Made by a program: the position numbers and the translations under genes. DNA of 64,000 nt from Terriglobia bacterium (GTDB taxonomy: Bacteria; Acidobacteriota; Terriglobia; Terriglobales; Acidobacteriaceae), in NCBI GenBank assembly GCA_020073465.1, contig JAIQFC010000018.1:62001-126000 (forward strand). The letters are read 5' to 3'. The notes under the pieces are model-generated. The model was not told the DNA's origin, did no database searches, and was given only the letters and a program-made list of their open reading frames with translations. Positions 26,073 to 30,690 of this stretch are shown here, piece after piece (the stretch's first letter is position 1; the number at the start of each line of letters is the position of its first letter).

Positions 26073-27521
26073 ATGGAAACACAATTGTTAATCGGATCCA
26101 AGGAAACCCCGGCGGGCGGTGGAAAAACGTTCGACCGGCTCAATCCGGTTACGGGTGAACTCGCTACCAGAGCTGCCGCCGCTTCCATCGAGGACGCAAA
26201 GCTAGCTGCCGATGCCGCCGCGATTGCATTTCCTGCATGGGCCGAGATGGGCCCCGGCGCCCGCCGCACGCTTTTGAACAAGGCGGCCGACGCGGTACAG
26301 GCCAAGGTTGCGGAGTTTACCTCAGCCATGATGGAAGAAACGGGCTCCTCCGCGCCGTGGGCTGGTTTCAACGTGATGCTCGCCGCCGGCATGCTTCGCG
26401 AGGCTGCGGCGATGACCACCCAGATCACGGGAGAGGTGATTCCATCTGACAAGCCCGGCACTCTTGCTCTAGCGGTACGCCAGCCAGCCGGCGTCGTGCT
26501 GGGCATCGCACCCTGGAATGCGCCCGTGATCCTGGGGGTCCGCGCGGTCGCCATGCCTCTCGCTTGCGGGAACACCGTTGTGCTCAAGGCTTCCGAGCTT
26601 TGTCCACGCGTCCATTGCCTGATCGGCCAGGCATTCCGCGATGCCGGCTTCCCCGATGGCGTGGTCAACGTCGTAACCAATTCCGTGCCTGATGCGGCCG
26701 CCATTGTCGAAGCGCTGATTGATCATCCCGCCGTCAAACGCATTAACTTCACCGGTTCGACTCGCGTTGGTCGCATCATTGCCCAGCACGCCGCCCGTCA
26801 TCTCAAGCCGGTGCTTCTCGAACTCGGCGGTAAGGCGCCGCTGCTGGTGCTCGAAGATGCGGATCTCGACGAGGCCGTCAAAGCGGCTGCTTTTGGCGCT
26901 TTCATGAACCAGGGTCAGATTTGCATGTCCACCGAGCGCATCATCGTGGTGGAAGCTGTCGCTGACGCATTTGTTGCGAAGCTCGCCGAAAAGGCGTCCA
27001 GACTGGTTGCGGGCGACCCGCGTGAGGGCAAGACTCCCCTCGGCGCTGTGGTCGATCACCGAGCCATCGAAACAGTGGGCAAGCTGATTGACGACGCTTT
27101 GGCTAAGGGCGCCAAGCGCGTGGCCGGCAAGGATGGTTCCGGTGTGATCATGTCGGCGTGCGTGATTGATCGCGTTACGCCGGGAATGAAACTTTATTCC
27201 GAGGAGTCGTTTGGTCCCGTCGTCGCCGTCGTCCGCGCAAAGAACGAAGCAGACGCGGTGCGCATTGCCAACGACACCGAGTATGGCCTCTCGGCCGCCG
27301 TCTTCAGCCGCGATATCGCGCGGGCCTTGAAGGTCGCGAAACAAATCCAGTCGGGGATGTGCCATATCAATGGGTCCACCGTTCACGACGAAGCGCAGAT
27401 GCCTTTCGGCGGCGTCAAAGCCAGTGGTTACGGGCGCTTTGGCGGCAAAGCTGCTATCGCCGAGTTCACCGATCTGCGCTGGATCACCATTGAAACTGAG
27501 CCTGGCCACTTCCCGATATAG
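26073..27521 (+). CDS. Aldehyde dehydrogenase, benzaldehyde/vanillin/salicylaldehyde type
   Basis: The product, 482 residues from the ATG at 26073, is a complete NAD(P)-dependent aldehyde dehydrogenase. The active-site glutamate is in LELGGKAPL (Glu250) and the nucleophilic cysteine in NQGQICMSTE (Cys284). The Rossmann loop is NFTGSTRVGR, and PWNAPVILGVRA is the conserved early motif. QGQICMSTERI and the short N-terminus are characteristic of aromatic aldehyde dehydrogenases such as vanillin or salicylaldehyde dehydrogenase. The start is set by GGAGGA at 26059-26064; eight residues upstream in frame were dropped. It would oxidise an aromatic aldehyde to the acid that the linked CoA ligase can activate. 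It converges on the LysR gene. Confidence 0.88.
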   Translation: METQLLIGSKETPAGGGKTFDRLNPVTGELATRAAAASIEDAKLAADAAAIAFPAWAEMGPGARRTLLNKAADAVQAKVAEFTSAMMEETGSSAPWAGFNVMLAAGMLREAAAMTTQITGEVIPSDKPGTLALAVRQPAGVVLGIAPWNAPVILGVRAVAMPLACGNTVVLKASELCPRVHCLIGQAFRDAGFPDGVVNVVTNSVPDAAAIVEALIDHPAVKRINFTGSTRVGRIIAQHAARHLKPVLLELGGKAPLLVLEDADLDEAVKAAAFGAFMNQGQICMSTERIIVVEAVADAFVAKLAEKASRLVAGDPREGKTPLGAVVDHRAIETVGKLIDDALAKGAKRVAGKDGSGVIMSACVIDRVTPGMKLYSEESFGPVVAVVRAKNEADAVRIANDTEYGLSAAVFSRDIARALKVAKQIQSGMCHINGSTVHDEAQMPFGGVKASGYGRFGGKAAIAEFTDLRWITIETEPGHFPI

Positions 27522-28459: not shown

Positions 28460-28488
28460 ATTGTAATACCCGATGAGTATCAGTTGAA
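28460..28488 (-). promoter_or_regulatory. LysR-gene promoter with embedded ATAC-N7-GTAT operator
   Basis: On the minus strand, -35 TTCAAC (28488-28483), a 17-base spacer and -10 TACAAT (28465-28460) lie just before the GTG at 28452. The spacer contains the exact dyad ATAC-N7-GTAT at 28466-28480. A regulator bound there would block RNA polymerase, so negative autoregulation is expected. The same dyad recurs at 30409-30423. Confidence 0.72.
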
Positions 28489-28531
28489 CGGTTCTGGTCC
28501 AGCCGATTACGCGCCAGGAGAAAAGTGTACT

Positions 28532-30124
28532 TCACTCATCCATGTCATCTATGGGGACCCGGTCCTCCTGTGAGGTCTGTGCACGCAACTTGAAGCGCTG
28601 AAGTTTGCCGGTTGCTGTTTTCGGGAGTTCCGCCACGAATTCAATCCAGCGCGGGCATTTGTAGCCAACCAGCCTTCGTGCCACCCAGTCTCGGAGATCG
28701 GCGGCGAGTCTGTCGGCAGGACGAAAATCTGGATTCAGCACGACATAGGCCGCTGGTTTTAACAACCGGTTCCCATCCCCGCGGGCGACAACGGCCGCTT
28801 CCCGTACCGCGGGATGCGCAATGAGTGCGCTTTCAACCTCGGTTGGACTCAGCCAGCGCCCGTTGACCTTGAACAGATCATCGGAGCGGCCGGCGTACCA
28901 GAAGTAGCCGTCCGCGTCCTGGTAGTACTTATCGCCAGTGTGAAACCAATGCCCCTCGATCGTGTCCTTGCTTTTTTCGTGCTGGTTCCAGTAGGCCGCG
29001 CAGACAGAATCTCCTTTGACCAGTAAGTTGCCAATCTCACCCTGGGCCATTGGCCTCCCATCGTCGTCGACGATCTTGGCTTCATAGCCGGGGATAACCT
29101 TGCCGCTTGATCCTGGCCTCACGGCACCCGGGCTATTCGACAGGACCATCTGCAAGGTTTCTGTCGAGCCCAGGCCATCCAGAATCTCCACGCCGAATCG
29201 CTGCTGGAAACGCTCAAACAGGGGCGCAGGGAGGGGTTCGCCGGCGGAGATGGCATGGCGCACACTGGAGAGATCAAACTCGGAACCATCCGCTCGGCGA
29301 TGAGCCAGCAGCGCGGCATAGTTCGTGGGAACGGAGAAAAACAGGGTGGGGCGGTAGCGTTCGATGTTGGCGTAGATGTCTTCTGGGGTTGGGCGGTCCG
29401 GCGAGAGAATGCTGGTTGCGCCGAATGCCAAGGGGAAATAGCCGGCATTCCCCAGCCCATATGCGAAGAACAGACGCGCAACGCTGTAGCACCGATCCCG
29501 TTCATCCATCCGCAGAATGCCTTTCGCATACAACTCGGAGCACACCACCATGTCGTGATGGAGATGGACGCACCCCTTCGGGAAGCCAGTGCTGCCCGAG
29601 GAGTACAGCCAGAAGGCAGCATCATCTTTGCTGGTCGGTGCGGCGACCAACTCGGGAGACGAGTTGGCCAGAAGCTGACTGAAACTTAGAGAGCCCGCGT
29701 CCGGTTGTCCGATCACCACGAGCTTCCGCAAATACTCGAGACGCGTCCGCGGAATCGCCTGCAACTGCGGCAACAATGCTGCACTCACGAAGGCCACGCC
29801 CGCCCGAGTGTCGTTCAAAAGGTATTCATAGTCTCGAGCATGCAGCAGTGTATTGGTGGGAACCGCCACCGCACCGATCTTGATCGTGCCAAAGAAGCAG
29901 TACAGAAACTCCGGGGTGTCTTCCAGCAACAACAGGACACGCTCCTCCGGGCGCACATCCAGCTCGCGGAGCGCATTTCCCACCTCGTTCGTTCTTTGGA
30001 GCAGCTGTTGATAACTAACCTGCTGATCGCCACACTCAATGGCGATTCGTTGTCCCCTGCCTTCAAGGACATTGCGGTCCACGAAATACGTGGCGACATT
30101 GAATGTTTCCGGCAGGGTGATCAA
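28532..30124 (-). CDS. Benzoate-CoA-ligase family enzyme (aromatic acid activation)
   Basis: A 530-residue member of the ANL superfamily. The start MITLPETFNVATYFVDRNVLEGRGQRIAIEC is characteristic of benzoate/4-hydroxybenzoate-CoA ligases. FWLYSSGSTGFPKGCVHLHHD is the P-loop A3 motif, and VARLFFAYGLGNAGYFPLAFG, LDGLGSTETLQ (A5), FHTGDKYYQDADGYFWYAGRSDDLFKVNGRW (A7-A8) and PKTATGKLQRFKLR with the A10 lysine are all present. It forms the acyl-CoA of an aromatic acid with ATP. The LysR gene follows 79 bases downstream on the same strand. The region upstream holds a copy of the LysR-type operator, so induction by an aromatic compound is plausible. No ring-cleavage or reductase genes are in the window. 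Confidence 0.87.
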   Translation of the reverse strand: MITLPETFNVATYFVDRNVLEGRGQRIAIECGDQQVSYQQLLQRTNEVGNALRELDVRPEERVLLLLEDTPEFLYCFFGTIKIGAVAVPTNTLLHARDYEYLLNDTRAGVAFVSAALLPQLQAIPRTRLEYLRKLVVIGQPDAGSLSFSQLLANSSPELVAAPTSKDDAAFWLYSSGSTGFPKGCVHLHHDMVVCSELYAKGILRMDERDRCYSVARLFFAYGLGNAGYFPLAFGATSILSPDRPTPEDIYANIERYRPTLFFSVPTNYAALLAHRRADGSEFDLSSVRHAISAGEPLPAPLFERFQQRFGVEILDGLGSTETLQMVLSNSPGAVRPGSSGKVIPGYEAKIVDDDGRPMAQGEIGNLLVKGDSVCAAYWNQHEKSKDTIEGHWFHTGDKYYQDADGYFWYAGRSDDLFKVNGRWLSPTEVESALIAHPAVREAAVVARGDGNRLLKPAAYVVLNPDFRPADRLAADLRDWVARRLVGYKCPRWIEFVAELPKTATGKLQRFKLRAQTSQEDRVPIDDMDE

Positions 30125-30690
30125 CGTAATCTCTCTTGGCTTCTGCGGCCTCGATTTGAGGCTTGGCGCGTCCTGGGACCAGCTGAGCCGTCAGGGAGCG
30201 GGAGTATAGCACGGGGAGATCCTCTCCCTTTCAAGCGCACCAGTTTCGTCGCGTCCGGCCAGGGTGCCGAACGAAGTCGCGCTATGCGTGTGCTTCGCTA
30301 GCGTGCCGGCACGTCGCGCAGCGACAACAGCCTCTTTCTTCTTCGAATTGCAGGCATGCAGGTCAAGAGGGAGGGGGCAGGATGAGTTCGTTGCCTCGCT
30401 CGAAGTTGATACCTAATAAGTATCAGTGTCCGACCAAAGATGTATTGGACAGTATTTTGGTTCCGCTCCATGCTCTCGCGGCAATGGTGGGGTGAAGTCT
30501 GTACTGATGGGTTCTGCCAAACGCTTGCAACTCACAACATCGCTGATTGTTTCGCTCCCGGTGTCGCGCTTGTCTCATGAGGGCCAGCACGGGGCATTGA
30601 AGTTATGCAAGCGGAGTAGGACGCAGCGAGCTTCTTGATTTTGTGTCAGATGCGTGTCCGAAGTAAGTACGGCCGTCGCGAAGGAGCCCT
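30125..30690. other. Divergent regulatory region between CoA ligase and TonB receptor
   Basis: These 566 bases hold no credible gene and separate the minus-strand ligase from the plus-strand receptor, so promoters for both should be here. A perfect 12-base palindrome CGTGCCGGCACG is at 30302-30313, followed by GTCGC-GCA-GCGAC at 30313-30325. The LysR-type operator copy lies at 30409-30423, roughly midway. The receptor's ribosome site GAAGGAG is near 30678. Confidence 0.55.
30409..30423. promoter_or_regulatory. Second ATAC-N7-GTAT LysR-type operator
   Basis: ATAC at 30409-30412 and GTAT at 30420-30423 are separated by exactly seven bases. The flanks also match the site in front of the LysR gene: over 21 aligned bases 17 are identical, including GTATCAGT on the right side. 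It lies about 285 bases before the ligase start and 268 before the receptor start, so either or both could be controlled from it. Confidence 0.65.

Follow-up and report, generated by a model that had tools for sequence, protein, structure and literature searches.

The window, i.e., the 64 kb stretch of DNA analysed here, is a section of contig 17 of the 5.9 Mb genome of a soil acidobacterium and carries, in this order, genes for an aldehyde dehydrogenase (+), a LysR-type regulator (-), a member of the benzoate-CoA ligase family (-) and an Oar-like TonB-dependent receptor (TBDR; +). Two short dyads accompany these genes, one in the LysR promoter and the other upstream of the receptor (Table 1).

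With 89 bits for HTH_1 and 112.8 bits for LysR_substrate, both over the gathering scores, the regulator belongs to the LysR-type proteins. The receptor likewise exceeds the gathering scores of its three Pfam domains and belongs to the Oar-like TBDRs, large receptors with unknown cargo of which acidobacterial genomes encode many. It is 56-59% identical to eight aligned orthologues, its PDB matches are exclusively siderophore receptors (weak and in the plug region), and its structure model, with a mean pLDDT of 30, was unusable. The best PDB match of the ligase is the anthranilate-CoA ligase 4wv3, and the aldehyde dehydrogenase matches salicylaldehyde dehydrogenase (6qhn) with 709 bits and vanillin dehydrogenase (9ihb) with 678 bits.

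Table 1. Features of the locus in window coordinates and, in the last row, a second block found at other loci.
Feature	Position	Strand	Remarks
Aromatic-type aldehyde dehydrogenase	26076..27521	+	6qhn and 9ihb matches; no dyad
LysR-type regulator, 300 aa	27550..28452	-	HTH_1 and LysR_substrate; close orthologues in 11 other genomes
LysR promoter TTCAAC-17-TACAAT	28460..28488	-	predicted leaderless transcript; read from sequence
LysR-side dyad, likely autoregulatory operator	28466..28480	-	-28 from start codon
Benzoate-CoA ligase family protein	28532..30124	-	TIGR02262 617.6 bits, cut-off 375.25
Ligase extended -10 (TGCTATACT)	30203..30211	-	without adjoining dyad
Receptor-side dyad, predicted LTTR recognition site	30409..30423	+	centre about -65; 14/14 loci
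Activation site GACCAAAGATGTAT	30432..30445	+	its GTAT 22 bp past the dyad GTAT
Receptor core promoter	30446..30474	+	-35 TGGACA 30446-30451, 17 bp, -10 CATGCT 30469-30474
Oar-like TonB-dependent receptor, 1067 aa	30691..33894	+	CarboxypepD_reg N-domain; PF13620, PF25183, PF00593
Second LysR-receptor block	L133 4826-5098, L135 7636-8033, L137 10127-10389, L138 3601-3897, L145 6015-6406		

The module in related genomes

The loci compared here were picked by protein, 12 via LysR (the window's own included) and one (G024) via the ligase, with the exception of G361, which was found via a 20-mer described below. Close LysR orthologues are present in 7 of the 45 genomes of the genus sample (window genome counted) and in five additional genomes among the 399 drawn for the class sample, i.e., in 12 genomes with a completeness of 74-100%, at 63-72% identity to the window protein and, for G036, only as two pieces. 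Among the 396 genomes drawn for the phylum sample, a LysR match at E<=1e-100 was found only in the window's own genome, and in a named collection the module has its nearest relatives in MAGs carrying the labels Acidobacteriaceae and Acidobacteriales. The distribution of the LysR module across relatives is patchy. Its movement by horizontal transfer is suggested because the LysR proteins of G307 (another genus of the same family) and G344 (another family) are nearer to that of the window, with 71-72% identity, than the same-genus orthologues with 64-68%. No tRNA or Rfam element was found near the locus.

In 11 of the 12 genomes, LysR, alone or paired with the ligase, has an orthologous TBDR next to it, and in G032 the contig stops first; in G036, LysR is split across contigs and the reading frame of the receptor is interrupted. 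G000, G009, G012, G307 and G344 have the ligase between LysR and receptor, and G032 has it beside LysR (6/12 in total). G014 has two tandem LysR copies (L068 9023 and 10037) with a dyad at each, and G061 has two partial copies by the intact one (L069 8492-9070 and 11785-12162) that are probably decaying duplicates.

Two conserved dyads

The first-pass annotation had reported exact ATAC-N7-GTAT at two positions of the window, and we found both, ATACCCGATGAGTAT on the LysR side and ATACCTAATAAGTAT on the receptor side, with the former inside the 17-bp spacer of the minus-strand LysR promoter as claimed. Aligned from two bases before ATAC, they are identical at 17 of 21 bases (counted by eye). 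The attribution of the motif to the CatR/BenM group holds as well: this and the other published systems are cited here from parts of the respective papers, which give ATAC-Y-N5-R-GTAT as the preferred Site 1 of BenM/CatM (PMC6628147) and AkACC-N5-GGTAT for CatR and its kin (PMC6449761). At both window sites, pyrimidine and purine flank the half-sites as in the CatR/BenM operator class.

By chance, a mean of 0.13 exact dyads is expected per 64 kb, and two or more appeared in 1 of 100 shuffles. Genome-wide, the exact dyad occurs 13 times and its reversed pattern 6 times, which amounts to only a roughly twofold enrichment of the bare motif. The remaining 11 exact dyads of the window genome were rejected as extra targets since all of them lie within ORFs, as called by a simple ORF caller that may include spurious ones in this GC-rich genome. 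A weight matrix built from 25 sites, both window dyads among them, scores these two at 23.1 and 25.6, and the runner-up in the window reaches 9.7 and is located inside an ORF.

Conserved place and sequence in relatives are stronger evidence than such chance statistics. Looking for the dyad in related genomes was the check that the first-pass annotation had proposed, with a lack of conservation to count against it; we ran this check and found the dyad conserved. Footprinting across the relatives marks both dyads, which we consider real, as predicted operators.

Outside the module, we examined seven dyads in relatives that were picked by eye among the matches listed (G009 and G012 being absent and G024 partial), and five of these seven lie within ORFs. 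One in G036:C242 (L121 6473-6487) abuts a called ORF start, and one in G032:C532 (L126 5662-5676) is located between ORFs and has a degenerate 20-mer (5/20 mismatches) after it; each is a possible further target. The dyad also occurs outside this LysR group: of 15 acidobacterial loci fetched for a LysR gene of 40-52% identity, three (L140, L141 and L144) have an exact copy upstream of that gene. Of 74 still more distant LysR genes (37-43% identity), two are preceded by an exact dyad at a distance of up to 400 bp.

Promoters of LysR and the receptor

The LysR mRNA is predicted to be leaderless because only 7 nt separate the -10 from the GTG start codon (28452). Among 13 orthologous LysR promoters, a count that leaves out the truncated second copy of G061 with no dyad, nine have the exact dyad 28-29 bp upstream of the start; that of G358 has one mismatch, G307 and G344 have the right half only, and in G434 neither half is complete. 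The orthologous promoters have a TATARAAT-like -10 located 7-9 nt from the start codon (weaker in G434), and an AT-rich, -10-like stretch overlaps or follows the right half of the dyad with no space for a leader. The LysR-side dyad is likely to serve autoregulation of a leaderless gene, which would not be universal because G307, G344 and G434 lack the dyad and G358 has it mismatched.

The second dyad is found in all 12 LysR genomes and precedes the orthologous TBDR in 11, the contig of G032 ending there. Together with G024 and G361, these genomes provide 14 receptor-promoter loci (the receptor itself is off the contig in G032), all of which have the exact dyad, the 22-bp step from GTAT to GTAT, the activation site and the -35. 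Their common layout runs from the dyad at about -65 through a near-invariant ACCAAACATGTAT and the -35 TGGACA to a spacer of 17-18 bp (18 bp in G024; the G032 contig stops within it) and the -10. In an ungapped alignment of the 14 loci anchored at the dyad, mean pairwise identity rises from 0.27 (60 to 10 positions before the dyad) and 0.37 (last 10 positions before it) to 0.73 for the dyad, drops to 0.50 for the 8-bp gap and peaks at 0.92 for the 20-mer comprising activation site and -35; the spacer has 0.59, the -10 has 0.72, the 10 positions after it have 0.38 and the leader has 0.27. The promoter block appears to be under selection, given that the outer flanks differ as much as unrelated DNA.

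Receptor transcription would start at about 30481. Counting from a start placed by the -10, all 14 promoters have a T-N11-A dyad near -65 and a second site by the -35. With the -10 as printed, -65 is the centre of the dyad and the second GTAT directly adjoins the -35 box, in agreement with LTTR promoters (PMC4834489) and with benA (PMC6628147) as far as described in the cited parts. As predicted from these elements, the textbook layout of a LysR-activated promoter is aimed at the receptor rather than at the ligase.

Allowing up to two mismatches, the 20-mer occurs in 7 of the 399 class genomes and its reversed control in none. Five of them are LysR genomes that have it at the receptor, in G361 it lies before a receptor with 63% identity across the first 440 residues, and in G417 it is found within an ORF; G434 escaped this class-wide search with three mismatches. 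We discarded a sigma-54 reading of TTGGACA-N-TTGC, which is present in some promoters, as the GC of the -12 is unconserved whereas the 17-18 bp spacing of sigma-70 is kept. A mini-ORF of 37 codons with a strong Shine-Dalgarno-like stretch (window 30382-30495) spans the second dyad; the flank identity of 0.27 argues against it, and it is probably due to chance.

The ligase and the aldehyde dehydrogenase

The ligase is preceded by an extended -10, TGYTATACTC, which lies 63-87 bp upstream of its start at all seven loci that also have the receptor dyad. We fetched 12 other ligase loci, all of them devoid of exact dyads and LysR matches, and found the same element 53-71 bp upstream at five of them (L070, L073, L076, L077 and L078), i.e., at 5/6 with at least 68% identity and 0/6 with at most 64%. 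The element is missing at L074 (71% identical) and at six loci of 50-64% identity, and the called start codon of some of these ligases is uncertain. Because the extended -10 is kept also at loci without LysR or an exact dyad, the ligase seems to have its own promoter. A ligase orthologue occurs in the genus without LysR adjoining it.

The single regulon of LysR, ligase and receptor proposed by the first-pass annotation survives in part: LysR and TBDR are linked by dyads in several genera and two families, but the ligase, with its own extended -10 and with 6 of the 12 LysR genomes having no ligase between LysR and receptor, is not supported as a member. We rejected it as an established member in view of its conserved promoter and of the receptor-directed dyad block; judging by its upstream region, the ligase is a frequent neighbour with a putative promoter of its own and not a proven target. 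The aldehyde dehydrogenase was dismissed as a LysR target since nothing upstream of it reaches a weight-matrix score of 9.

The LysR protein and its likely ligand

Among the 25 NCBIfam models listed for LysR, none reaches its own cut-off. AlsR (254 of 430 bits) and HcaR (214 of 356) score best, BenM comes fifth with 161 bits against a cut-off of 600, and CatM obtains 128.3 of 580. The best PDB match is BenM, and in the alignment with it S99, R146 and E162 are kept and S128 takes the place of T128; we take S99 and T128 to be contacts of the primary effector in BenM. R160 and Y293, which are critical to the benzoate response of BenM (PMC6628147, in part), correspond to F160 and F295 in the window protein, and F160 is nearly invariant among 12 orthologous sequences. 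The label "BenM/CatM-type" of the first-pass annotation is thus apt for the DNA site but not for the protein, with its model scores below the cut-offs and both residues changed. LysR is predicted to work like a regulator of the CatR/BenM group on a like site without being BenM itself, since F replaces R160 and Y293.

In relatives, neighbours of the module that score over their cut-offs include a 4-hydroxybenzoate 3-monooxygenase (TIGR02360) and a benzoylformate decarboxylase (NF005485), and further neighbours are PanE-like and GMC oxidoreductases, an MFS transporter and a DUF485 protein. For a neighbouring symporter, the closest models are monocarboxylate and acetate transporters, below their cut-offs, and the best solved relatives of a neighbouring cupin are 2,4'-dihydroxyacetophenone dioxygenases. 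In a local search of the fetched stretches, 10 of the 12 LysR genomes showed aromatic genes or the ligase by the module; the tested aromatic genes were not found in the stretches of G358 and G102, two genomes that encode PobA and benzoylformate decarboxylase on a different contig. Genome-wide and at the thresholds used, PobA is present in 8/12 genomes, benzoylformate decarboxylase in 7/12 and the symporter in 6/12, and BoxB scores above its cut-off in 1/12. The window genome has no PobA, benzoylformate decarboxylase or symporter at these thresholds, and its BoxB match is below the cut-off.

Three of the six symporter genomes have a dyad upstream of the symporter operon (G009, G061 and, with one mismatch, G036). 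In G014 nothing in the fetched stretch scores 9 or more, in G102 there is no dyad close by, and in G032 the contig begins inside the gene. Because aromatic neighbours recur and a dyad precedes the symporter operon, an aromatic effector is likely as our best guess, and it is from gene neighbours that we infer an aromatic inducer and cargo.

Discussion

The sites, their spacing and orientation and the linkage of LysR and receptor are conserved, and we consider it probable that they form a self-controlled LysR switch governing an importer of the outer membrane, with an aromatic effector and cargo as the most likely case. For LysR binding, activation and ligand we infer the following course. LysR would bind the dyad in its own leaderless promoter, restricting its own synthesis, and also the receptor-side dyad with its centre at about -65. 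Effector-bound LysR would contact the activation site abutting the -35 and recruit RNA polymerase, and the Oar-like TBDR would thereby be produced in the presence of its substrate. Effector and cargo would most likely be aromatic acids or ketones derived from plants or lignin.

The same LysR-receptor switch could instead serve a non-aromatic cargo such as a siderophore, carbohydrate or peptide, with aromatic genes nearby by chance or as part of a mobile catabolic island. This would fit the PDB matches of the receptor, all of them siderophore receptors (weak, in the plug region), the absence of several catabolic genes of the relatives from the window genome and the best NCBIfam model of LysR, which is the acetoin regulator AlsR (below cut-off). 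We nevertheless regard a non-aromatic cargo as unlikely, though not far-fetched, because the aromatic genes tested recur by the module in two families and because the window itself has an aromatic-type aldehyde dehydrogenase and a member of the benzoate-CoA ligase family as neighbours.

The full one-regulon model, in which LysR, ligase and receptor are under both dyads and the ligase is driven divergently from the second one, could draw on the rather constant distance of 259-285 bp between ligase start and dyad (7/7 loci) and on the activation of close divergent promoters known for LTTRs (PMC4834489, in part). Yet the conserved block is directed at the receptor and unchanged where the ligase is absent, and the dyad-free extended -10 of the ligase is kept at 5 of the 12 other fetched ligase loci, all 12 of which lack an exact dyad and a LysR match; we find this model improbable. 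Still less credible to us is that another regulator reads the conserved block, inside which lies a CCAA-N7-TTGG dyad, with LysR as a bystander. The part comprising activation site and -35 is indeed better conserved than the LysR-type dyad (0.92 vs 0.73), and CCAA-N7-TTGG is present at most loci, but the LysR-type dyad recurs at a fixed place in the LysR promoter and before the symporter operon, and dyad and 20-mer were found together solely at this receptor.

Beyond the self-controlled switch proposed for this receptor, five more distant LysR genes of another genus (46-52% identity) adjoin other Oar-like receptors and share a different intergenic block, TAACAGAA...CAAAATAAG-AAT-RGACA (Table 1). 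Given these five distant pairs with a block of their own, LysR-receptor pairing may be a recurring theme in the class. It is a plausible though tentative generalization that the LysR-paired Oar-like TBDRs of Acidobacteriota are inducible aromatic importers in at least two families with their own operators, of which the module described here, whose predicted leaderless LysR gene has the operator in its promoter, would be one.

Comparison with known systems

A close likeness in promoter layout is offered by the benA and catB promoters of BenM/CatM in Acinetobacter baylyi, where Site 1 with ATAC-N7-GTAT is followed by a less perfect second site and then the -35, and where a repressing Site 3 has been described at both (PMC6628147, in part). 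The target here differs in being an outer-membrane receptor, and LysR scores far under the BenM and CatM models. The CatR/ClcR/TfdR group is alike in its operator AkACC-N5-GGTAT and differs in the target gene, and the main text of the study concerned does not contain the term "TonB" (PMC6449761). With the canonical LTTR circuit, summarized in the cited part of the ThnR paper as a primary site near -65, a secondary site towards the -35 and negative autoregulation (PMC4834489), the module shares the site layout; here, however, there are two separate dyads, one for each promoter, at a distance of 92-130 bp in G014, G036, G061 and G102 and of 1.9 kb in the window with the ligase between them.

Among the listed titles and abstract openings of open PMC articles, we found no account of an acidobacterial Oar-like TBDR under LysR control. 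The link of its promoter to a LysR of the CatR/BenM operator class gives the receptor a class of substrates that can be tested, and the promoter of 66 bp would be a ready reporter for inducer hunting. As an aromatic TBDR, the receptor would resemble DdvT of Sphingobium sp. SYK-6, which has been shown by experiment to take up a lignin-derived aromatic compound and is induced by that compound; DdvR is a MarR-type repressor, whereas a LysR-type activator is predicted here (PMC6874591, in part). If true, this LysR-driven, Oar-type case would extend DdvT-like uptake of aromatic compounds to another phylum and to another regulatory logic.
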